Source of the DNA: Streptomyces sp. CC228A
GTDB lineage: Bacteria; Actinomycetota; Actinomycetes; Streptomycetales; Streptomycetaceae
DNA: 64,000 nucleotides
Assembly: GCF_021390935.1 (NCBI RefSeq)
Contig: NZ_JAJPUI010000008.1
Coordinates: 186,001-250,000, forward strand
Reading direction: 5' to 3'
The position numbers and the translations under genes were made by a program. Shown here piece after piece: positions 4,263-20,456 of the stretch; within the stretch, counting starts at the first letter, position 1; each line of letters starts with the position of its first letter. The notes beneath the pieces are model-generated. The model was not told the DNA's origin, made no database searches, and saw only the letters and a program-made list of their open reading frames with translations.

Positions 4263-5254
4263 CCGCCCGCCGCCTGCCCTGGGCGGGGATGGCCCGGCTC
4301 GCGGGGCGGCGGGCGCTGTTCGCCGTCCCTGTCCTGCTGGCCGTCACCTTCGGCGTCTTCGCCGTGGCCGCCGCCTCCCCCTTCGACCCGGTCGCCGCCT
4401 ACTCCGGCACCGCCGGGCTCACCGCGTCCCAGGAGAACCTGGACCAGCTGCGCGCCAACCTCGGCGCCGACCAGCCGTTCACGGCCCGCTGGTGGGAGTG
4501 GCTCGGCTCCGCCGCGACCGGGGACCTGGGCGACTCGACCTCCATGCGGCAGCCCGTCACCGACGTCATCGCCGAGCGCCTCGGCTGGTCCGCGCTGCTC
4601 GCCGCCACCGCGTTCGCCGCCGCCCTGCTGCTCGGCACCGCCCTCGGCGTGCTCGCCGCCCACCGCAGGGACGGCTGGTTCGACCGCTGCGCCACCTCCG
4701 CCGCGTACGCCCTGGAGGCCGCGCCCGCGTTCTGGCTCGGGCTCCTCGCCATCTGGCTGTTCGCACTCCAGCTGGGCGTCCTGCCGGCCGGCGGCCTCAC
4801 CGACACCGCCAGCGACACGGTCACCGCAGGACAGGTGGCCCGCCACCTCGTGCTGCCCGCCGGCGTCCTCGCCGCCTCGCAGCTGCCGTGGTTCCTGCTG
4901 TACGCGCGGCAGGGCGTGGCCGACGCGCTCGACGAGGACCATGTGCGCGGCGCCCGCGCCCGCGGCCTGCGCGCCCGGACCGTCCTGCTGCACCACGCCC
5001 TGCGCTCCGGAATGCTGCCCGTCCTCACCCTCATCGGCTCCCGCGTGCCCGAACTGATCACCGGCGCCCTGCTCGTCGAGACCGTCTTCTCCTGGCCCGG
5101 CATCGCCGCCGCCACCGTGCAGGCCGCGCTCGCCGCCGACTTCTCCCTGCTCGCCGCGCTCACCGTGCTGGCCACCGCCGCCGTCCTGCTCGGCAACCTC
5201 CTGTCCGACGTCCTGTACGGACTCGCCGACCCGAGGGCGGGCTTCGATGGCTGA
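4259..5254 (+). CDS. ABC importer permease, DppB/OppB type
   Basis: A 331-residue integral membrane subunit. The first transmembrane helix (about residues 15-38) is followed by an extracytoplasmic loop, then the core permease domain with about five helices. The conserved EAA-type cytoplasmic loop (DEDHVRGARARGLRARTVLLHH) and the closing motif LLVETVFSWPGIA mark the BPD_transp_1/DppB family. The start is GTG at 4259, which overlaps the stop of the binding-protein gene as GTGA, indicating translational coupling. It should pair with the next permease to form the channel. Confidence 0.92.
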   Translation: MTARRLPWAGMARLAGRRALFAVPVLLAVTFGVFAVAAASPFDPVAAYSGTAGLTASQENLDQLRANLGADQPFTARWWEWLGSAATGDLGDSTSMRQPVTDVIAERLGWSALLAATAFAAALLLGTALGVLAAHRRDGWFDRCATSAAYALEAAPAFWLGLLAIWLFALQLGVLPAGGLTDTASDTVTAGQVARHLVLPAGVLAASQLPWFLLYARQGVADALDEDHVRGARARGLRARTVLLHHALRSGMLPVLTLIGSRVPELITGALLVETVFSWPGIAAATVQAALAADFSLLAALTVLATAAVLLGNLLSDVLYGLADPRAGFDG

Positions 5255-6134
5255 GCGCTCCACACGGCCCCCGCGTGCCGCCACCGCCCCGCGCCGCCCC
5301 CGGGCCGCGGCGGCGAGGCGCCCGCGCGTGGCCCTCCCCGCGGCGGTCGTCGCCGTCACCCTTCTCGCGGTCCTCGCCGTACCGCCGCTGGTCCAGCTCG
5401 ACCAGCAGGCCGTCGACCTCTCCGCGAAGCTGCTCCCGCCGTCCTGGCAGCACCCCTTCGGCACCGACGACCTGGGCCGCGACCTGCTGCTGCGCTGTGT
5501 GTACGGACTGCGCGTCTCCCTGCTCGTCGGCGTCGCCGCCGCCGTCGCGGCCACCGTCGTCGGCACGGCGGTCGGCGCGGCCGCGGGGGCCCTCGGCGGC
5601 TGGGCCGACCGGCTCCTCATGCGCCTCGTCGACACCGTGTCGTCCGTACCGCACCTGCTGCTCGGCATCGTCGTCGTCGCCCTGTTCCGCCCCGGAGTGG
5701 GACCCGTCATCGCGTCCGTCGCCGTGACGCACTGGCTGTCCACGGCCCGGATCGTCCGGTCCGAGGTGCTGTCCCTGCGCGCCCGCCCCTACATCGACGC
5801 CGCCATCTCGGGCGGCGCCTCCCGGCTGCGCGTGACGGTCCGGCACCTGCTGCCGGGCGTCGCCCCGCAGGCGGGCATCGCGGCGGTGCTGATGATCCCG
5901 CACGCCATGTGGCACGAGTCGGCGCTGTCGTTCCTCGGCCTGGGCATGCCCACCCACCAGGCCAGCCTCGGCACCCTGGTGCAGTCCGGCCGCGGCTCCC
6001 TCCTCGCCGGGGACTGGTGGCCGACCCTCTTCCCCGGCCTGTTCCTGATCGTGCCGACCCTGGCCGTGGCGGCGCTCGCCGCAGCCTGGCGGGACCGGCT
6101 CAACCCGCGCCGCCGCTCGGAGCTGACGCTGTGA
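5247..6134 (+). CDS. ABC importer permease, DppC/OppC type
   Basis: A 295-residue second permease. An Arg/Ala/Pro-rich cytoplasmic N-terminus is followed by a first helix near residues 32-48 and the typical periplasmic signature HPFGTDDLGRDLLLRCVYG. The EAA loop is around YIDAAISGGASRLRVTVRHL, and ESALSFLGLGMP is the expected C-terminal family motif. The ATG at 5247 lies 8 bases inside the preceding permease gene, so the two are surely co-translated. Confidence 0.92.
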   Translation: MAERSTRPPRAATAPRRPRAAAARRPRVALPAAVVAVTLLAVLAVPPLVQLDQQAVDLSAKLLPPSWQHPFGTDDLGRDLLLRCVYGLRVSLLVGVAAAVAATVVGTAVGAAAGALGGWADRLLMRLVDTVSSVPHLLLGIVVVALFRPGVGPVIASVAVTHWLSTARIVRSEVLSLRARPYIDAAISGGASRLRVTVRHLLPGVAPQAGIAAVLMIPHAMWHESALSFLGLGMPTHQASLGTLVQSGRGSLLAGDWWPTLFPGLFLIVPTLAVAALAAAWRDRLNPRRRSELTL

Positions 6135-7476
6135 CGACCATCCTGTCCGTACGGGGACTGACCGTGCGGTTCCTGATGCGGGGCCGCCCGCCCGTCGCCG
6201 CCGTCACCGACGTGCACCTGGACGTGGCGGCGGGGGAGTGCCTCGCCCTCGTCGGCGAGAGCGGCTGCGGCAAATCGGTGCTCGCCTCCGCCCTCCTCGG
6301 CCTGCTGCCCGCCAACGCCGAGGTCGAAGGCTCCGCCGTGGTCGCGGGCGGGGAGGTGCCCGGCTCCGCCGCCGTGCCCCGCAGCCGCACACGCGCGGGT
6401 TCCGCAGCCGTCGCCGACAGCCGTGCGCTTGCGGGATCGGTCCCCGTAGGCGGCAAGTCCCCGAGGACCGCCGCCGGCGGCAGCGTGGACGGCGCGGCCT
6501 CCGCCGGCGTCGCCGGCACGGGGAGGCCGAAGGCCCGGCTGCCGTCGCCGGAGGCGAGGCCGCGGGCTCCGCCGCTGGGGAAGCCGGCACCGCCGTATCC
6601 GCCGCTGCGGCTGAATCCGCCGCGGTGTCCACTTCCGCCCCCTCCGCCGCCTCCGCCGCCTCCGCTGCCGCCTCCGCCGCCTCCGCCGCCTCCGCCGCCT
6701 CCGGGGCCGACGGCCGGGGCGGACCCGCGGCTGCCGCGACACCCGCGGCCGGCAGCGTCGACCTGATCGCCGCCGACGAGCGCACCCTCGCCCGCACCGT
6801 GCGCGGGCGCCGTGTCGGCCTGGTCCCGCAGTCCCCGGCCGCCCACCTCACCCCGGTCCGCACCGTCCGCGCCCACCTCGCCGAGTCCCTGCGCGAACTG
6901 ACCGGCACCCCGCGCGCCGTGCTCCCCGCAGCCGTCGCCGCCGCGGCGGAGCGGGCCGCCTTCCCGGCCGACCACCTCGACCGCTACCCGCACGAGCTGT
7001 CCGGCGGCCTCGCCCAGCGCGCCGCCACCGCCCTCGCCCTCGTCGGTGACGCGCCCCTCCTCCTCGCCGACGAGCCCACCACCGGGCTCGACCGGGACCT
7101 GGTGGACCGCACCGCCGACGAACTGCGGCGCCACGCCGACGCGGGCCGCGCCCTGCTGCTCATCACCCACGACCTCGCGGCCGCCCGGCGCATCGCGGAC
7201 CGCGTCGCCGTCATGTACGCCGGCCGGATCGTCGAAGTCGCCGCCGCGGACCGGTTCTTCGGCGCCCCCGGCCCCCGCCACCCGTACGCGCGCGGACTGC
7301 TCGCCGCGCTCCCCGAACGGGACTTCACCCCCATCCCCGGGATGCCGCCGGAGCTCGGCGCCCTCCCGGACGGCTGCGCCTTCGCTCCCCGCTGCGCCCA
7401 CGCCACCGACGAGTGCCTCCGCACGGTGCCCCGCTTCACGGACGGCGCGGCCTGCCACCACCCGCAGGAGGCGTAG
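6131..7476 (+). CDS. ABC importer ATPase, DppD/OppD type, with a long low-complexity insertion and an apparent frameshift
   Basis: The GTG at 6131 overlaps the preceding stop (GTGA). The first frame gives the N-terminal strands and Walker A (GESGCGKS, about residues 37-44). After the GGGG run at 6520-6523 the gene continues in another frame with Q-loop VGLVPQSP, signature LSGGLAQR, Walker B LLLADEPTTGLD, the H-loop histidine in LITHDLAAARR, and a C-terminal oligopeptide-transporter domain with the cysteines of CAFAPRCAHATDEC. One added G joins the parts into about 448 residues. Between Walker A and the Q-loop sit roughly 150 residues of Ala/Ser/Gly-rich sequence where relatives have about 50 (see the repeat at 6643-6699). 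Everything needed for ATPase function is present on both sides. The frame break could be a base-calling error or a true mutation. Confidence 0.8.
6643..6699 (+). repeat. TCCGCCGCC repeat array inside the ABC ATPase gene
   Basis: Six units of TCCGCCGCC (one with an extra GCT codon) encode Ser-Ala-Ala repeats in the restored frame. They form the core of the non-conserved insertion between Walker A and the Q-loop. The 9-bp period suggests expansion by slippage. Confidence 0.8.
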
Positions 7477-9514: not shown

Positions 9515-9946
9515 GTGAACAAGGAGCAGCGCCGGCGCGTCATCGCCGAGGTCCAGACGGAACGCGAGCGCCTGCTGCCGCTGCGGGAGGAGGCGACGGA
9601 GACCACCATCGCCGCGATGCGGCAGAGCGCCGCCGCAGAGCCCCTGGACCTCGTGCCGTATCTGAACCTCGCCTACCTCCTGGGCGTCCGGCACACCCGC
9701 GGCGACGACGGCCTGCTGGCGTTCGCCCTGTCCCTGGCGAACTGGGCGGCGGCCTGCATCAAGGAGGTGGCCGAGTACACCGGCCGCACGACGGAGGAGG
9801 TCATCGACCAGTACGAGACGGAACTCATGGAGGCCCGCATGGCCCAGGCCGTGGACGGCGACGGCGAGTACGGGCCGGAGGTCCACGGGGACGGCGGGGC
9901 GGATGGCGACGCCCACCGCGACGGCCCCCCTCCGCACGGCTGCTGA
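9515..9946 (+). CDS. Conserved hypothetical protein
   Basis: A 143-residue, mainly helical and acidic protein with no motif I can assign. The core (about residues 45-110) includes PYLNLAYLLGVRHT and NWAAACIKEVAEYTGRTTEEV; the last 30 residues are Asp/Gly/His-rich and end in a cysteine. The GTG at 9515 is preceded by GGGAGG. It is not overlapped by neighbours and lies 116 bp after the deacetylase gene. Confidence 0.6.
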   Translation: MNKEQRRRVIAEVQTERERLLPLREEATETTIAAMRQSAAAEPLDLVPYLNLAYLLGVRHTRGDDGLLAFALSLANWAAACIKEVAEYTGRTTEEVIDQYETELMEARMAQAVDGDGEYGPEVHGDGGADGDAHRDGPPPHGC

Positions 9947-10124
9947 GGCCCGCCGCCCCTGAGGCAGCAGGCGGCGGAGGGATCCGCCCCGCAGGCCGGC
10001 CCCGCTGCCGCGGACCCCGCAGGGCCGGGGCAGCGTGCCGGGGCAGCGGCGACCGCCCCGGCACCCGCGGGGCCTGGCGGCAGGACCGCGGGGTCCGGGC
10101 GGATCCGGGGCGGCGGCCGCCGGG

Positions 10125-13063
10125 TCAGACCTCCTCGGACAGCTTCTCCAGCAGGAACTCCAACCGCTCCACGGCGCGCTGCACCTCCGGGCTCCCTGCC
10201 GGGCCGAGCGCGGCGATCACCGACCGCACGCGCGACACCGCCGCCTCGGCGCGGCCGAGGCCGTGCTCGATCCAGGCGGCCCGGCCGGTGCACTGGACGC
10301 GCTCCTCCAGCGCCGCCGGCCCCAGCGCGGCGAAGGCGGAGTCCGCCTGGTCCAGCAGCGCCAGCGCCTCCGGGCCCGCCGCCGCGAGCACGTCTCCACC
10401 GGGCGCTTCCGCATCCGGGTCCTCTTCGTCCTCAGCCCGGGCGTAGGCCGCGTCCACCACCAGTCGCGCCGTCTGCGCCCACGTCCGGGCACGCTCCAGC
10501 AGCAGATGCGGATCCCCGTCCCCGGCGACGGCCGCCAGCGCGCGGTCCATCAGCCGCCGGGCCGCGGCGGGATCCCCGGCAGCCTCCAGCCAGGCCAGCG
10601 AGCGCAGCGCCCGGGCCAGCGCCACGGGCTCGCCGACCGCCTCCCACAGCCCGATCGCCCGCCGGTACGCGGCGACCGCGTCGTCGTCCCGCCCTGCCTC
10701 CGCCAGGCATTCCGCCGCGAGCGTCGCCAACTGGGCGTGCGCGCCCTGGTGCTCCCACGCCGCGGCGACCTCGGCGGCCTGCAGGTACTGCCCCGCCGCC
10801 GCCCGCGCGTCGCCCAGGGCGCGCAGGCTCCGCGCGAGCACGTCCCGCGCCTGGACGGCGTGCTCGTCGCCGTGCTCCAGCAGGTCCGGCAGCGCAGACT
10901 CCAGCACCTCGGCGGCCTCGGCGTGCCGGCCCGTCGCCCCCATCGCCTGCGCCAGCAGCATCCGGGCGTACGCCCCGGGGCGGCGGACTCCCCGGCGGCG
11001 TCCCACCAGTGGGCCGCCTCCAACGCGTGCTCGGCCGCCTCCGCCTCCTTGCCGTCCTGCCGGTACAGGACCTCCGCCAGCGCGGTCCGCAGCGCGGCCA
11101 GCACGCCCGCGTCCACGAGCTCCGCCCCGTGGGCCACCGCGGCGCGGGCCGCGTCCTCCGCTTCGCCCGCCCGGCCCAGGTCCAGCAGCAGCCGGGCCCG
11201 CCGCGCCAGGTGCTCGGCGGCGTCCCAGGGCGGCCCGCCCCGGCGATGCGCCGCACCGCCGACGCCAGCAGCGCGTCCGCCCGCTCCGGATCACCCGACC
11301 GCCAGGCGTGGTCGGCGCGCAGCTGCTCGGCGTCGCCCACGAGGTCGCCGACGCCGCTGCCCTGCGCGTATGTGTCGACGAACCCCGCGAGGGCGGCGTC
11401 CGCCCATGCGCCGCCGTCGTCCTCCTCCGTCTGCCGCCGCATCGCCTCGTACCGGATGCGCAGCAGCTCCACCCCGGCCACGCGCCGCAGCCGCGCCGGC
11501 TCCGCCTCGCCCAGCGCCCGCGCCGAATCGGCGGCCTTCGCCAGCAGGTTCCGTACGGCCTCCGGCTCCGCGCCGCCGCGTATCGCCGCCACCGCCAGCC
11601 GCTGCTCGGCCAGCGCGGCACCGGCCGCGTCACCGGCGGCCCGGTACGCCTCCAGCACCTCCCGGAGGAGCGCGCCCGCGCCCTCCTCCTCCGACTGCGC
11701 CGCCGCGAGCGCCCGCCGCTCCAGCAGGTCCGCCGCCAGCAGCGGGTCCGGTGCCTGACCGGTCGCCGCCACGGCCGCGGAGACCCGCTCCCAGGCCTCC
11801 GCCGCCCTCGGGTGGCCGAGCGCCCTGCGCCTGCGGGCCTCGGCGACCAGCTCCGGCAGGTCCGCGGCGCCGCCTTCCCGCGGCGCGGCCCCCGCCGCGT
11901 CCTCGGGCGCGGGGACGGCAGCCCCCAGGGGCACCGGGAGCCCTGCCGTACGCACCCCGAGCGGCAGCCGCTCCACGAGCGGCTCCTGCGCCAGGCGGTC
12001 CCGCAACCGCTCCGACACGGCGCCACTGCCGTTGCGCGCGTCGAAGCGGGCGGCTGTGGCCGCGGCCTCGGCGTCGAGCATGCCGTGCAGCTTTCCCCGA
12101 CCGTGCGCGGGCTCCGCCGTACGCGACGGCCGGCCGGTCGCCGTGGCCGAGCGCGAGCAGCCGCCGGAGCAGCACCAGGGTGCCTCCCAGCAGGTCGAGG
12201 CGGGCCGCCGGATTGCCGTCCGAGGCGAGGTGCGCGGCGTGCTCGGCGAGCACTTCGAGCCCCCGCCCCTCGTTCCCGGTGAGCGCGCAGAACTCGATGT
12301 GCCGGCCGATCGCCGGGAGCAGGCTCTCGTTGCCGCGGGCCAGGCGGTGGCCGCGCAGGTGGTGCGCGCGCGCCGCGTCGAGCCGCCCGGCCCGCACCAG
12401 CGGCAGCAGCGACTCGGCGAGGACCCGGTGCGGTTCCTCCGCGCAGCCCTCCCGGCCGTCCAGGACCGGGGCCCAGGACTCCAGTGCCCCGTCGACGCGG
12501 CCCTGGTGCAGCCGGTACCGCCCCTGGTCGTTCAGCTCGCAGGCGTGGCAGTCGGCCATCGAGTCCCGGTCGGCCGCCGTCCACGCGGCGAACGCGCGGG
12601 CGGCCCGTTCCCCGTCACCGGTCTCGTGCGCCAGGGTGAACTCCGCCTGCCGCACGGCCCGCTCGCTGTAGCCCGCGGTCCGGTAGCGGCGCTCCATCTC
12701 GGCGAGCCAGCGCTCGATGGTGGCCAGCGGGATTTCCGGGAGCGTCAGCATCCCGGAGCTCACCCACTTGAACATCCAGTGGAACCGGTGGACGTCGTGC
12801 CGGTCGAACGCCGACGGGTCCTTGTCCCACTCCTGCATGAGCCGCGCGAACGGCACCAGCATCCTGCCGCGCTCGGTGCTGAACTCGTACGCCGTGATCA
12901 GCTCGAACAGCGCCTTCCTGACCAGGTCGCGGTCCCCGGTCGACTCGGCGGCGGCGACCAGTTCCTCGGCGCGGGCGTTGCGCAGCGGCCCGTTGGGCGC
13001 CGACTGGTTCTCCCGCAGCGCCTGCAGGACGGCCTCGGGGGTGTGGGCGGGGGCGGCGGTCAC
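10125..13063 (-). CDS. Large TPR-like helical repeat protein coupled to HSP90 gene (several apparent frameshifts)
   Basis: This gene starts with GTG at 13063, which overlaps the HSP90 stop as GTGA, so the two are translationally coupled. It reads as four fragments in successive frames: 13063 to about 12110, 12081 to about 11236, 11236 to about 10976, and then to the stop at 10125. One added G (minus strand) at the runs at 11234-11236 and 10973-10976 joins the last three; the join near 12085-12115 needs two added bases or one removed. The joined protein of about 980 residues consists of Ala/Arg/Glu-rich helical pairs resembling degenerate TPRs, such as AAEVLESALPDLLEHGDEHA and AVAAYRRAIGLWEAVGEPVA. 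No catalytic motif is visible. TPR proteins are classic HSP90 partners, so a co-chaperone or client-adaptor role is the obvious inference. Confidence 0.7.
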
Positions 13064-14919
13064 TTCTGGCCTTCCTCTGCGGTCGTGTGCGTGGCCCATT
13101 CCAGGAGCCCGAGGAAGGCCCGGTTGAGCAGCGACGTGTCGGCGGGGCGCAGCGGCCGCTGCGCCATCAGCAGGGCCTGCCCGTAGAGCGACTCGACGGC
13201 CGTGCCGGCGAGTTCGGGATCCTTGATGGCCGCGATGCGGCGCACCAGCGCGTTGTCGTGGTTCAGGACGAGGCGGGCGCGCGGCGCGGAGCCGCGCAGC
13301 GCGCCGAGGATGTCGCTCCACAGCGTGTCGGCGCTCTCCTCGGCCGCGGCGCGGTCCCGTTCGTGCCGGGCCTCACGGTCGTCCAGGTAGAGCGCCGGCA
13401 CGGTGACCGGCTGGAACGCACGCAGCGCGACGTCGCAGCCGAGCCCGTCCAGCCGCGCCCGGGCGGTCGCGAGGAACCCGGCCAGGGCCAGCTCGCGGTC
13501 CGGTGCCACCGGGTCGAGGTGGGCGGTGACCGCCCCCGCGTCCAGCTCCCCGACGCTCACGCCCGGCAGGACCTGCGGCAGCAGGGCGACGAGGTCGGCG
13601 TCGTACGTGTACCCGCCGTTCACGACGCCCAGGCCGTGCGCCGCCGCGATGGGCGCCACCTGCCGGAACTCCTCCACCGTGCGCGTGACGTGCACCTGCG
13701 GGTACGTCCTGGCGAACCGGTCCAGCGTGACCCGGCCGTCGCTGGTCTCGAACGGCAGCCACGGCAGCATGAGCGCGAACAGCTCGGGGTCGTGGCGCGC
13801 CATCGACTTGACGCCCAGGTGGTGCACCGACAGGAAGGCCGCGAGGCGGTCCGGGTCCCCGGCGGCCAGGTCCGCGAGCCACGCGCGGACCCGGGCGCCC
13901 AGCGCCTCGCGGACGGCGGCGAGCGTCTCGTCGTCGTACAGGTTCTCCCGCGACGCCGTGGGGCGCAGCGTGTCCGTGTCGAGGACGACGCGCACGAAGA
14001 ACGCCCAGTCCGGCAGCAGGTTGTCGGCCCGGTCGGTGAGCAGCATCCCCTTCAGGTACACCCGGTGCGGCGCCCGGTGCGCCGGGCTCGTGGCCGAGGG
14101 CAGCACGTACGCCACGCCCCGGACGCCCGCGACGGGCAGGTCCAGGTCGATCGAGTCGAGCGGGGTGAAGCCGAAGACCCGGGCGCAGTGGCCGGCGAGC
14201 GCCACCCGGCGGGCGGTGGGCGTCGCATAGGGCCGGTCCCACACGGCGGGCCGCTCCGTGAGCTGCCGGTCGGCTCCGTCAGGCCCGGCGAAGACCACCT
14301 CGTACGGCAGCAGCGACCCGAAGTCTCGGGCGAGTTCGGCGACACGGGCGGGGTCGGTCCACTCCTCGGCTCCCGGCCGCGGCTCCAGCCGCACGGTCGT
14401 GCCCGGCTCCGGCCGCGCCTCGTGCGGCAGGGTGCGGACCGTGTACGACCCGTCGTCTCCGGCCAGCCATTCCACGGGCGGCTCGTCCGGCTTGCGGGCC
14501 GAGCGGGAGACGACGCGGATCTGCCGGGCCGCGACGAAGCAGGCGAGCAGGCCGATGCCGAACTGGCCGAGGAACTCCTGACGCGCTCCGTCCAGCGCGT
14601 CCCGCTTGGAGCTGCGGCCGATGGTGGCAAGGAGGGTGTGCACCTCCTCCGATGTCAGGCCGATGCCGCTGTCCTCCATGACGACCGCCCCGCCGGTGGC
14701 GGTGAGGCGGATCCGGGCGGGTGCGGCCGGGTCGGCGGCGCGCCGGGCGGTGACCGCGTCGACCGCGTTCTGCAGCAGCTCACGGACGTAGACGCGGGGG
14801 CTGGAGTACAGATGGTGGGACAGCAGGTCGACCAGGCCCCTGAGGTCCACCTGGAAGGTGCTGACGGACGGTTCGGACGGCACGGGTGCTGGGTACGAGT
14901 GCGGGTTCATGGGCACCAA
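13060..14919 (-). CDS. HSP90-like molecular chaperone (HtpG family)
   Basis: A 619-residue protein with the GHKL ATPase domain first: the motif-I glutamate and asparagine in YVRELLQNAVDA (about residue 50), motif II MEDSGIGLT, and motif III LGQFGIGLLACF. The middle domain carries the expected LKGMLLTDRADNLLPDW and PTASRENLYDD motifs, and the C-terminal part is shorter than in E. coli HtpG. It is a cytosolic ATP-dependent chaperone. The start is uncertain: GTG at 14919 or ATG at 14910, with no strong ribosome-binding site for either. It overlaps the downstream TPR-like gene by 4 bases. Confidence 0.88.
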   Translation of the reverse strand: MVPMNPHSYPAPVPSEPSVSTFQVDLRGLVDLLSHHLYSSPRVYVRELLQNAVDAVTARRAADPAAPARIRLTATGGAVVMEDSGIGLTSEEVHTLLATIGRSSKRDALDGARQEFLGQFGIGLLACFVAARQIRVVSRSARKPDEPPVEWLAGDDGSYTVRTLPHEARPEPGTTVRLEPRPGAEEWTDPARVAELARDFGSLLPYEVVFAGPDGADRQLTERPAVWDRPYATPTARRVALAGHCARVFGFTPLDSIDLDLPVAGVRGVAYVLPSATSPAHRAPHRVYLKGMLLTDRADNLLPDWAFFVRVVLDTDTLRPTASRENLYDDETLAAVREALGARVRAWLADLAAGDPDRLAAFLSVHHLGVKSMARHDPELFALMLPWLPFETSDGRVTLDRFARTYPQVHVTRTVEEFRQVAPIAAAHGLGVVNGGYTYDADLVALLPQVLPGVSVGELDAGAVTAHLDPVAPDRELALAGFLATARARLDGLGCDVALRAFQPVTVPALYLDDREARHERDRAAAEESADTLWSDILGALRGSAPRARLVLNHDNALVRRIAAIKDPELAGTAVESLYGQALLMAQRPLRPADTSLLNRAFLGLLEWATHTTAEEGQK

Positions 14920-15220
14920 GGAGACACGCGCACGGCCCCTGACGGCGGCCGCGGGTGCGGGGTCGGGCGATCGCGGGGTCCCCCCCTCACGAATCGCGAT
15001 CGGATGTGGTGACCATCGTAGGGATCACGACTGACAACGCCCAGGCGGTTTCCCGGAGCTCCGCGAAGCCCGGCCGCGGCGGCGCCCGGCCCGGCCCGGT
15101 CCCGTCCCGGCCGGTGCCCCGGCCTGCCCGGCAACCCGGGCTCACGGGTGCCTGCCAGGCGGTCTCAGGCACCGCACCTGCCGCCGTCCGCTAGGTCGTG
15201 TCTCTGCGATCAGTGGCTCG

Positions 15221-16145
15221 TTGTTCTGGTCATGCTCAGCAGGGGGGAATCTGACCGACGACGAGTGGGCGGTCTTGGAGCCGCTGCTGCCGAAGAGCAA
15301 CAACCGATGTGGCAGGTGGCGAGACCATCGCCAGGTGATCAACGGGATCATCTACCGGGTTAGTACCGGCTGCCAGTGGCGCGAGTTGCCTACACCCACG
15401 AACGGCACATGCTCTGGTCGATCGATGGCACCTGGGAGACGCTGCTCCGACACGTCCAAGCCGTTGCCGACTCCGAGGGTGACATCGACTGGGACATCAA
15501 CATCGACTCCACCTCGATCCGCGCTCACCTGCACGCCGCCGGAGCGCCAAAGGGACCGCCGCCGCCCTGCCGGCCACACAAAAGGGGGCAGCGGAAAGAT
15601 CAGCTCACATGCGCGCACTTGTATCTGCGGCCGTTCTTGGAGGAGGCGGTGCGGCAGGCGAGGCTCTCGGTCGCTCGCGCGGCGGCCTGACGACGAAGCT
15701 GCACCTGAGCGCGGACGGCAAGTGCCGGCCGCTGTCGCTGCTCGTGACACCAGGGCAGCGGGCCGACTGTACGCAGTTCGAAGCGGTCATGGACAAGATT
15801 CGTGTCCCTCGGCTGGGCCCGGGTCGGCCTCGCCGAAGGCCCGACAGTGTGGGTGCCGACAAGGCATACAGCAACCGCAGAACCCGCACCTATCTGCGCG
15901 AGCGCGGTATCCGGCACGTGATCCCGGAGAAACGGGACCAGGCAGCCGGCCGCCTGCGCAGAGGATCCCGCGGCGGACGGCCTCCCGGGCTCGACAAGGA
16001 CCGCTACAAGAAGCGCAACACCGCCGAGCGCGCGATCAACAAGCTGAAGCAGTTCAGAGCTGTTGCAACCCGCTACGACAAGCGGGGATACGTCTTCCTC
16101 GGCACCGTCACCGCCGCAGCACTCCTGATCTGGCTACGCTCGTGA
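15221..16145 (+). pseudogene. IS5-family transposase, frame-disrupted
   Basis: Three frames each hold a part of an IS5-type DDE transposase: LTDDEWAVLEPLLPKSN through GCQWRELP; then HERHMLWSIDGTWETLLRHV through the first acidic block IDWDINIDSTSIRAH; then GRSRGGLTTKLHLSADGK, SVGADKAYSNRRTR and RYKKRNTAERAINKLKQFRA with the DDE end. The first junction (near 15390) lacks about eight residues found in relatives, indicating a deletion. The second (near 15650) is a one-base shift. Some IS5 subgroups use programmed frameshifting, but the first junction cannot be explained that way, so this copy is probably inactive. Confidence 0.85.
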
Positions 16146-16254
16146 CCGGAGGCATGTCCGACTGCCGCCCGCACCGTCCCATGTGGACCAAGAGTCGACG
16201 TAGTAGGGCCAAACAGGTTGCGACCGGGCATATGATCGGCTTGGGTGCGTGCTC

Positions 16255-17019
16255 GTGACTGCATGGAACGATCTCGTACGTCCGGACCGCTATCCACGCT
16301 CCTCTCGGTATGACCCCGCCTGGTTGCTCGATCTCGACATGGGGCCGAACCCGCTCTGGCTGCTGGAAGACCTCGCCCACGACCTCGACCTGCGCCCGGG
16401 CATGCGGGTTCTCGACCTCGGCTCCGGCAAGGGCGCCACGTCGGTGTTCTTGGCCCGCGAGTATGGAGTCAAGGTCGTCGCGGCCGACCTATGGATCGCC
16501 CCCGAACAGGCGGCAGCGGTCTTCGCCGAGGCGGGTGTCGGTGACCAGGTGGAGGCCGTGCGAGCGGAGGCGCACGCCCTGCCGTTCGAGGAGCAGAGCT
16601 TCGACGCGATCGTCAGCGTGGACGCCTTCGAGTACTTCGGTACGGCGGACAACTTCCTGCCCTACCTGCTGCGCTTCCTCCGGCCCGGAGGACAGCTGGG
16701 CATGGCGACCCCCGCCATGACACGGGAGATCCGTGAACTTGGGGTGATCCCGCCCCACATCAAGAAAGTGGTCGGCTGGGAAGCGATCGCCTGGCACACG
16801 GCGGAGTGGTGGCGCTTCCAGTGGGACATCACCGAGTTGGTGAGGGTCACATCCGCGCGGCTGCAGCAGAACGCCTGGCAGGACTGGCTGCTGTGGGCCC
16901 GGGCCGGCGCTGAACACCATCCCGACGGCCAGAGCGCGAACCAGCCCATTATCGACATGCTCACCGCAGACCGCGGAGAATTTCTCTCCTTTGCTCTGGT
17001 GACCGCACATAAGAACTGA
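16255..17019 (+). CDS. Class I SAM-dependent methyltransferase, probable IS passenger gene
   Basis: An approximately 254-residue methyltransferase. The Rossmann motif I is VLDLGSGKGATSVFLAR (about residues 47-63); motif II ends VVAADLW, and the acidic post-II region is FDAIVSVDAFEYFGTADNF, followed by RFLRPGGQLGMATPA. It resembles small-molecule methyltransferases of the cyclopropane-fatty-acid/ubiquinone-methylase type; the substrate is unknown. GTG at 16255 gives VTAWNDL; another GTG lies 6 bases earlier. Codon use is less extreme than in the surrounding genes, which fits acquisition with the mobile element. It follows the transposase by about 110 bp in the same direction. Confidence 0.82.
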   Translation: MTAWNDLVRPDRYPRSSRYDPAWLLDLDMGPNPLWLLEDLAHDLDLRPGMRVLDLGSGKGATSVFLAREYGVKVVAADLWIAPEQAAAVFAEAGVGDQVEAVRAEAHALPFEEQSFDAIVSVDAFEYFGTADNFLPYLLRFLRPGGQLGMATPAMTREIRELGVIPPHIKKVVGWEAIAWHTAEWWRFQWDITELVRVTSARLQQNAWQDWLLWARAGAEHHPDGQSANQPIIDMLTADRGEFLSFALVTAHKN

Positions 17020-19350: not shown

Positions 19351-20456
19351 TTGATCAGAAACGGTTTGGGTTCTGGGTCGTTGGGTGGGTGTGAGCGATC
19401 TGGTGGGGGACGCGCGGCATCTGTCGCCGTCGGCGCAGGAGGCCCTGCGGCTGCGGGCGGTGGCCGCTCTGATGGCGGGGCGGGACCGCGAGGACGTGGC
19501 GGCAGTGTTCGGGGTGTCGCTGAAGGCGGTCGACGGCTGGTGGGCGAAGTGGCAGGCCGGTGGTCGGGAGGCCCTGGTCATGCGTCCTCGGGGTAAGCCG
19601 GTCGGTGTGCACCAGGTGCTCGGGGAGGCCGAGCAGGCCGCGGTGCGGCAGGCGGTCCTGGACCACCGGCCGTGTGACGTGGGGCTTTCCGGTCAGCTGT
19701 GGACACGGCGGCTGGTGGGCGAGCTGATCGCGAAGCTGTACCGGGTGCGGCTGACCGAGGTGGGGGTGGGCAAGTATTTGAAGCGATGGGGGCTGTCCTT
19801 CCAGCGCCCGGACAAGCGGGCCGTCGAGCAGGACCCCGAGGCCGTCCGGCGCTGGCATGAAGAGACCTGGCCGAAGATCCGCGTGCAGGCGAAGAAAGAC
19901 GGCGGCGAGATCCTCTTCGCCGACCAGGTCGGCATCCGATCCGACCAGGTCACCGGCCGCACCTGGGGTGAGAAGGGGAAGACGCCCGTCGTGCGGCGGA
20001 GCGGGAACCGGTTCTCCGTGAACGCGATGTCGGCGATCAGCACCAAGGGCCGGATGCACTTCATGGTCTTCACCGAGTCCTTCACCGCCGAAGTGATGTG
20101 CCGCTTCCTGGGCCGGCTCGCCGGCCACTTCGACCACAAGGTCCACCTCGTGGTCGACGGTCACTCCGCGCACCGCTCGAAGAAGGTCCGCGACTGGCTC
20201 GCCGCCCACCCCGATGATGTAGAGCTGCACTTCCTGCCCCCGTACTCGCCCGAGCTGAACCCCGACGAGCTGGTCAACGCCGACCTCAAGCACAGCCTGC
20301 CCAAGCAGCACCGGGCCCGCGACCAGGCCGAACTCGCTGCCGAAACCCGCCGCTTCTTCCGCAGGCGTCAGCGTCAGCCGCACATCGTCCGCGGCTACTT
20401 CGGTGGCCCACACGTCCGCTACGTCATGGACGAGAACCCCATGAGTTTCTGATCAA
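19351..20456 (+). mobile_element. IS630-family insertion sequence, apparently complete
   Basis: This 1106-bp element has perfect terminal inverted repeats: TTGATCAGAAAC at 19351 and GTTTCTGATCAA ending at 20456. It is flanked by TA on both sides (19349-19350 and 20457-20458), the target duplication typical of IS630/Tc1/mariner elements. It contains one full-length transposase gene. Insertion cut an FHA-flavin monooxygenase gene, and the event looks recent because both gene halves are undamaged. Confidence 0.93.
19385..20452 (+). CDS. IS630-family transposase
   Basis: A 355-residue DDE transposase. The N-terminal helix-turn-helix region (RDREDVAAVFGVSLKAVDGW) binds the ends. The RNase H-like domain shows the first Asp in EILFADQVGIRSD, the second in LVVDGHSAHRSKKV and the Glu in LPPYSPELNPDELVNADLK, all in canonical positions. 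The frame is intact, so the element may still be active. Starts at GTG 19385 or 19391 are equally possible. The stop lies 4 bases inside the right end of the element. Confidence 0.93.
   Translation: MGVSDLVGDARHLSPSAQEALRLRAVAALMAGRDREDVAAVFGVSLKAVDGWWAKWQAGGREALVMRPRGKPVGVHQVLGEAEQAAVRQAVLDHRPCDVGLSGQLWTRRLVGELIAKLYRVRLTEVGVGKYLKRWGLSFQRPDKRAVEQDPEAVRRWHEETWPKIRVQAKKDGGEILFADQVGIRSDQVTGRTWGEKGKTPVVRRSGNRFSVNAMSAISTKGRMHFMVFTESFTAEVMCRFLGRLAGHFDHKVHLVVDGHSAHRSKKVRDWLAAHPDDVELHFLPPYSPELNPDELVNADLKHSLPKQHRARDQAELAAETRRFFRRRQRQPHIVRGYFGGPHVRYVMDENPMSF

Follow-up and report, generated by a model that had tools for sequence, protein, structure and literature searches.

Results

An HSP90-family gene overlaps a gene for a helical-repeat protein

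The window analyzed in this work is a stretch of 64,000 nucleotides from Streptomyces sp. CC228A (contig NZ_JAJPUI010000008.1, positions 186,001 to 250,000), and coordinates without a locus handle refer to it. On its minus strand lies a gene pair composed of an HSP90-family ATPase gene (13060..14910) and, downstream of it, a gene for a large tetratricopeptide repeat (TPR)-like protein (13063..10125), referred to below as the partner. The HSP90 gene starts with an ATG at 14910, with an alternative TTG upstream at 14919, and encodes a protein of 616 amino acids (aa) carrying the ATP-pocket and middle-domain motifs RELLQNAVDA, DSGIG, GQFGIG, and TASRE. Its TGA stop codon (13060-13062) shares the 4-bp sequence GTGA (13060..13063) with the GTG start codon of the partner gene at 13063, so the stop/start overlap reported in the initial annotation is indeed present. 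The partner gene ends with a stop codon at 10125-10127. Just before its start, a purine run resembling a ribosome-binding site (13064..13081) encodes the residues EEG of the HSP90 C terminus, and translation of the two genes may be coupled. A scan of positions 9900-15300 for promoters and terminators found neither.

The HSP90 belongs to the NF010683 subtype

The window HSP90 matched the NCBIfam model NF010683 (PRK14083, "HSP90 family protein") over residues 16-613, nearly its whole length, with 826.8 bits (cutoff, 455), whereas it scored only 161.6 bits with the HtpG model NF003555 (cutoff, 371). The name and description of NF010683 mention neither a partner nor a specific function. In a profile search, the top solved relative was E. 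coli HtpG (PDB 2iop), a canonical member of the same family. The HSP90 superfamily residues given in Table 4 of Chen et al. 2006 (PMC1525184, accessible portions), including Y, REL, N, D, GQFG, and SRE, are present in the window protein. Across 15 aligned HSP90s, the residues of the ATP site and the catalytic loop, Y35, R43-E44-L45, N48, D51, G115-Q116-F117-G118, and S320-R321-E322 were invariant, and the SRE motif aligned with that of TRAP1. The accessible portions of PMC1525184 divide HtpG proteins into HTPG groups A, B, and C, place actinobacteria in groups A and C, and describe two S. coelicolor HSP90s of 638 and 615 aa that fall into different groups, the size of the 615-aa protein suggesting the NF010683 subtype. 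Group A is marked there by IGQFGVGFY and PLN; at these places, the window HSP90 has LGQFGIGLL and RPT. Two Streptomyces genomes with an NF010683-type gene (G013 and G107) carry an additional HSP90-like gene elsewhere, scoring 744.5 and 750.1 bits with NF003555, so the two subtypes coexist in one genome. In the CC228A genome, matches to NF010683 or PF00183 above the cutoff were found at this locus only. Judged by its sequence, the window HSP90 is a subtype separate from canonical HtpG; the initial annotation, which had set the locus against bacterial HtpG, was right about the family, but the protein is not HtpG itself.

The gene pair is conserved in Streptomyces and across the class

We then examined 199 Streptomyces genomes, the counts of HSP90 and partner covering the matches listed (150 places for each, weaker ones being uncounted). 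Among these, 147 adjacent same-strand pairs occur in 124 genomes, 101 of which have one pair and 23 have two. A strong HSP90 match was recorded in 125 genomes and a partner in 127, and the pair is found in 124 of each set. Across the class, a sample of 246 genomes gave matches of about 74 bits and above that we sorted into 37 strong and 41 weaker HSP90 places; a phylum-wide sample shares class members with it and was not counted separately. The partner core (described below) lies directly downstream of the HSP90 gene at 36 of the 37 NF010683-type places, which span six family labels, and at none of the 41 weaker HSP90-like places, two of which were checked and are both NF003555 HtpG. The initial annotation would have been abandoned had the two genes not been neighbors in other genomes; in 124 of 125 Streptomyces genomes and at 36 of 37 class-wide places they are, and the pairing is real, conserved, and of wider reach than had been guessed.

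The arrangement of the two genes was inspected in named relatives, the best 80 of 568 found (77 Streptomyces and 3 "Actinobacteria bacterium"). The partner is downstream of the HSP90 gene in all 80 loci, and the genes overlap in 75 of them, by 4 bp in 58 and by 1 bp in 17, a spacing that is therefore not due to chance. Two loci, L048 with a truncated partner and L084 with an in-frame stop in HSP90, were set aside for the range of spacing. The motif GGAGG is located no more than 18 nt before the partner gene in 48/80 loci and in 0/80 at a control position 100 nt farther upstream; at least one of nine words of ribosome-binding type occurs within 20 nt in 75/80, this set of words having no control.

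The partner combines a cysteine-containing core with a helical solenoid

In the relatives, the partner is one protein, mostly of about 900 to 1,100 aa. Its structure was predicted with AlphaFold (AF2) for the intact partner of L139 (Streptomyces sp. NRRL S-118, the nearest named relative), using an alignment of 58 of the 64 qualifying partners from the 80 named loci. The model is confident (predicted local distance difference test [pLDDT], 91.5; predicted template modeling score [pTM], 0.85) and all helical except for one hairpin, in agreement with the helical-repeat fold anticipated by the initial annotation. A low-confidence linker at residues 374-402 separates two regions. The C-terminal one (residues 403-1008) matches TPR chains with Z scores of up to 18.8 (for Pins, 4a1s, Z is 18.5 with a root mean square deviation of 4.2 over 328 residues). 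Since Z scores near 14 can be common among helical repeats, these matches indicate a fold class and not a relationship. For the N-terminal region before about residue 400, no solved relative stood out in the fold search, which barely tested it. The Pfam cutoff for TPR was reached by the last piece of the window partner (TPR_12, 40.5 versus 30.1 bits) and by the partner of L242 (42.1), and by none of five intact relatives in one Pfam scan, the best of which reached 24.8 versus 30.1 (L052).

The N-terminal region of about 370 residues constitutes the conserved part of the protein, with a mean identity of 69% among the 58 partners versus 54% in the TPR region. It contains a core of about 350 aa with a C-x2-C motif, a third cysteine, and FDxRNG. 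Of 14 diverse core domains, 13 have all three cysteines, which could have a metal or redox role. The combination of a TPR part with CXXC in a chaperone-type protein is reminiscent of bacterial CnoX/YbbN as described in the accessible portions of PMC10490939. However, the CXXC of CnoX/YbbN resides in a thioredoxin domain, whereas the C-x2-C of the partner lies in a helical core, and the passage available from that source makes no link to HSP90.

The partner gene is interrupted in the CC228A assembly

The single protein of about 980 residues that the initial annotation described does not exist as an open frame in this assembly: the length of 13063..10125 is not divisible by 3, and the coding sequence shifts through three frames. 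Codon-position GC and homology place the coding register in a first frame from 13063 to about 12.11 kb, in a second to about 11.24 kb, then back in the first as far as about 10.98 kb, and finally in the third up to the stop. Four pieces result, all on the minus strand. Piece 1 (12110..13063; 318 aa), assigned by frame and homology, contains most of the cysteine-containing core (C-x2-C...C); piece 2 (11242..12081) has the end of the core, the linker, and the start of the C-terminal helical region; piece 3 (10988..11236) returns to the frame of piece 1 with helical repeats; and piece 4 (10125..10985) carries the TPR repeats that gave the TPR_12 match and runs to the stop codon. When aligned with the L139 gene (2,169 of 2,931 aligned bases identical), the sequence shows frameshifting insertions or deletions near 12.1, 11.2, and 11.0 kb.

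An intact partner is the rule elsewhere, since 143 of the 150 places among the Streptomyces matches listed have a stop-to-stop frame of at least 900 aa. Among the seven that do not, one is CC228A itself and three (G046, G144, and G014) are close to contig ends. The gene is also split over frames in 2 of the 80 named loci (L145 and L214). In the window, the gene for an oligopeptide ABC transporter ATP-binding subunit (5909-7476, plus strand) is likewise spread over two frames (ABC_tran positions 2-45 and 36-137), and the CC228A assembly (6.86 Mb, 25 contigs) is only 94.57% complete; for these two reasons, indel errors are likely.

Two score bands differ in genomic setting

HSP90s and partners were sorted into bands A and B by their scores to the window proteins and not by a tree. 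The band of the HSP90 agrees with that of the partner in 147 of 147 pairs among the matches listed (94 A with A, 53 B with B, none mixed), and the 23 genomes with two pairs carry one of each band.

The most-shared flanking families of band A (100 loci) are RecG and a DAK2/FakA-like family, both named by Pfam and oriented opposite to the pair. The pair sits between these two genes in 61 of 119 loci, all of band A. In eight of eight pair-less genomes, the RecG and DAK2/FakA-like matches are 31-398 bp apart. Because the two genes nearly adjoin where the pair is missing, the pair is gained or lost as a unit.

The band B pair resides elsewhere. All 19 band B loci examined, and none of the 100 band A loci, have a same-strand gene for a protein of about 325-351 aa directly upstream of the HSP90 gene; the same gene precedes the pair on an S. 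globosus plasmid (L242 3956-4933). No Pfam family was found in the two members scanned, and the protein is possibly a third component.

In the window, the pair is flanked by ABC transporter and deacetylase genes on one side and by IS4/5-type (insertion sequence) transposase and methyltransferase genes on the other, none of which is shared with the 120 loci compared. Two transposase genes lie near the HSP90 gene on the plus strand (15221-16258 and 19385-20452), one IS4/5-type with DUF4096 and the other DDE_3 with a winged helix; their proximity is consistent with relocation of the pair.

Related genes occur outside the actinobacteria

Further cases came from a plasmid collection, some records of which are of chromosome size; those from Bacillota amount to only a few records. 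In Paenibacillus cellulosilyticus, an NF010683 HSP90 gene (714.7 bits) overlaps by 4 bp the gene for a 353-aa protein that comprises the core alone (176 bits with the actinobacterial core model). Listeria has an NF010683 HSP90 as well (799.4 bits), and behind it lie two proteins with the core domain, 324 and 320 aa long and scoring about 155 bits each; papers naming lmo0941 or lmo0942 include PMC6901971 and PMC10393277. Divergent HSP90-like proteins of 277-293 bits, under the NF010683 cutoff, precede helical-repeat-like proteins of 764-774 aa in P. aeruginosa, X. vasicola, and Salmonella; the gammaproteobacterial loci with such a pair are L245, L244, L250, and L253. In a profile comparison, the Pseudomonas/Xanthomonas/Salmonella partner emerged as a possible homolog of the core domain, with a probability of 69%, an E value of 4e-5, and the CxxC sites aligned. 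With a 4,000-base query over both Salmonella genes, matches each covering at least 80% were found in 245 of 5,426 E. coli genomes; in one genome viewed, the E. coli copy adjoins fdhD.

Several single records are described here for completeness. MT837560.1 (L249), a fecal contig filed as "Bacteriophage sp.," encodes an NF010683 HSP90 with a long partner behind it and appears to be bacterial DNA misassigned to a phage. The core is fused to a YbjN domain in G395 (L131 7532-9609) and lies near YbjN genes in Actinomyces oris (L246). A Priestia megaterium plasmid (L247, about 5001-5918) encodes a distant core relative that has none of the three conserved cysteines, with no HSP90 in the 10.9 kb examined. 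On a Pseudanabaena plasmid (L243 4938-7571), an 877-aa HSP90-like protein shows a weak C-terminal TIR-like match (19.5 bits; cutoff, 24.7), and its gene adjoins a TIR-domain gene and a TPR gene, possibly a defense-type HSP90.

Discussion

Eukaryotic HSP90 depends on TPR co-chaperones, and bacterial HtpG is thought to work without them. The pair found in CC228A and its relatives stands out as a strong candidate for such a partnership in bacteria, with an HSP90 and a putative co-chaperone dedicated to it. We consider it probable that the locus is a two-gene chaperone module formed by a second type of bacterial HSP90 (NF010683) and its own helical-repeat co-chaperone. Such a pair would work as an HSP90 with a built-in co-chaperone, the second gene supplying, in actinobacteria, a cysteine-containing core of about 350 residues, a flexible linker, and, toward the C terminus, some 600 residues of TPR solenoid. 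The core most likely docks on the HSP90 dimer without need of an EEVD tail, while the more variable solenoid most likely recruits or holds clients. We infer this division because the core is kept across two phyla and the solenoid varies, which makes the core the best candidate for the HSP90-facing module. A more far-reaching proposal is that Actinomycetota and Bacillota have a second bacterial HSP90 system, of which a related version exists in Pseudomonadota, some E. coli among them. In this system, a dedicated helical-repeat co-chaperone encoded by an overlapping or adjoining gene would make contact through a cysteine-containing core instead of an EEVD tail; to this proposal we give an even chance.

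The comparison with Hop, FKBP, and PP5 holds in part. As in those eukaryotic systems, and as the initial annotation had proposed, a helical-repeat protein accompanies an HSP90; unlike in them, the genes overlap and the known contact elements are not found. A [DE][DE]VD end, or EEVD in the last 20 residues, was present in none of 122 HSP90 C termini (repeats included; 101 distinct among 119 recounted). The complete two-carboxylate clamp, whose positions we take to be K-N-N-K-R with the usual spacing, was present in none of 72 complete partners, the best scores being 3 of 5 positions in 60 and 4 of 5 in 12. Any contact between HSP90 and partner would thus differ from the eukaryotic one. The acidic HSP90 tail (EEGQK, QEDQK, or EEDGR) was considered as a stand-in for EEVD and rejected, because both this tail and the RKD/RKE tail of band B are encoded by the purine run of the ribosome-binding stretch (GGAGG, GGAAGG). 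At the nucleotide level, the seeming conservation of the acidic tail is best explained by the ribosome-binding stretch of the next gene.

Besides the missing EEVD tail and clamp, several other observations weigh against a dedicated two-protein module. The partner copy of CC228A itself is broken as sequenced, and the structure model of the HSP90 was poor (pLDDT, 62) and served only as a rough fold check. Exceptions to the pairing were found on both sides. G608, the one exception among the 37 class-wide places, has the HSP90 and no partner, and G158 has no partner and an HSP90 matched only over residues 7-377. In G088, the partner is present with no HSP90 frame nearby and with a putative transposase gene, recognized by eye, upstream. 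The core stands without an adjoining NF010683 HSP90 in G138, in G395, and in the second copy of G654, and without one in the stretch examined in Actinomyces oris (L246 3319-8036) and in Priestia. Since the core occurs without this HSP90 in G395 and Actinomyces oris, its role may be that of a more general adaptor. The upstream gene of band B shows that a strict two-gene module does not fully describe those loci. We also considered a mirror-tree correlation (r of 0.98 for HSP90 versus core and 0.97 versus the TPR region) and rejected it as evidence of contact, as shared descent alone would produce it.

Other explanations of the locus were weighed as well. For CC228A, the three net frame changes in the partner, the IS4/5-type transposase gene adjoining HSP90, and the lack of a flanking gene in common with the 120 loci compared could mean that the locus is a decaying remnant, with a true pseudogene as partner and an HSP90 on its way to being lost; related losses have occurred in G088 and in G181, where HSP90 is largely deleted and the partner retained. 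Yet codon-position GC and homology are kept to the ends of each partner piece, and the similarly split ABC ATPase gene and the incomplete assembly suggest indel errors. Thus, we regard assembly error as likelier than decay of the gene and the remnant as a rather doubtful account of the locus.

Less likely still, the partner could be the single dedicated client of the HSP90, a large scaffold or sensor built of helical repeats that depends on the chaperone to fold or change state and is made next to it. This would produce the same adjacency and matched score bands, overlapping genes would suit the handing of a client to a nearby chaperone, and the actinobacterial partner is indeed very large and rich in repeats. 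However, what is conserved is the core, beyond which the Paenibacillus and Listeria partners have little, and partners persist where the neighboring HSP90 is deleted or absent (G181, G088, and G138), which is unexpected for a strict client. It is improbable that the pair is a conflict or stress-sensing system, for instance against phages, in which the TPR protein senses, HSP90 switches, and both move as a cassette. The patchy presence (partner in 127 of 199 Streptomyces genomes among the matches listed), the cassette-like presence or absence between two fixed genes, weak PADLOC matches of HSP90 to TmtA, and the Pseudanabaena HSP90-like protein with its weak TIR-like match beside TIR and TPR genes could be so explained, but neither of two partners tested had a PADLOC family match, HSP90 gave only weak ATPase-domain matches of up to 32.1 bits, and 61 of 119 loci occupy one fixed site between the RecG and DAK2/FakA-like genes. 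An effector gene may still lie among the other flanking families. The chaperone module remains our preferred reading.

We found no description of a pair of HSP90 and helical-repeat genes in a literature search by title and abstract start, whose coverage mostly excludes subscription journals, and the accessible portions of PMC3603443, PMC1525184, PMC11687934, PMC7926864, PMC9995270, PMC3534079, and PMC10490939 do not mention it. As far as its accessible text goes, PMC7926864 presents bacterial HSP90 as having no identified co-chaperones. The accessible part of PMC3603443, on HtpG of the geldanamycin producer S. hygroscopicus, states that evidence is lacking for any specific HtpG function in a streptomycete; it concerns a streptomycete HSP90, as does the present work, and mentions no partner, TPR, tetratricopeptide, or operon. 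The pair described here may bear on why the function of HSP90 in streptomycetes has stayed obscure, to judge from that part of PMC3603443.

An HSP90 subtype almost always accompanied by a helical-repeat protein of its own offers a concrete and testable candidate for having a dedicated bacterial helper, and through the divergent pair of 245 E. coli genomes the system comes near to laboratory bacteria. If the proposed wider system is confirmed, the partnership of HSP90 with TPR proteins would not be a eukaryotic invention.

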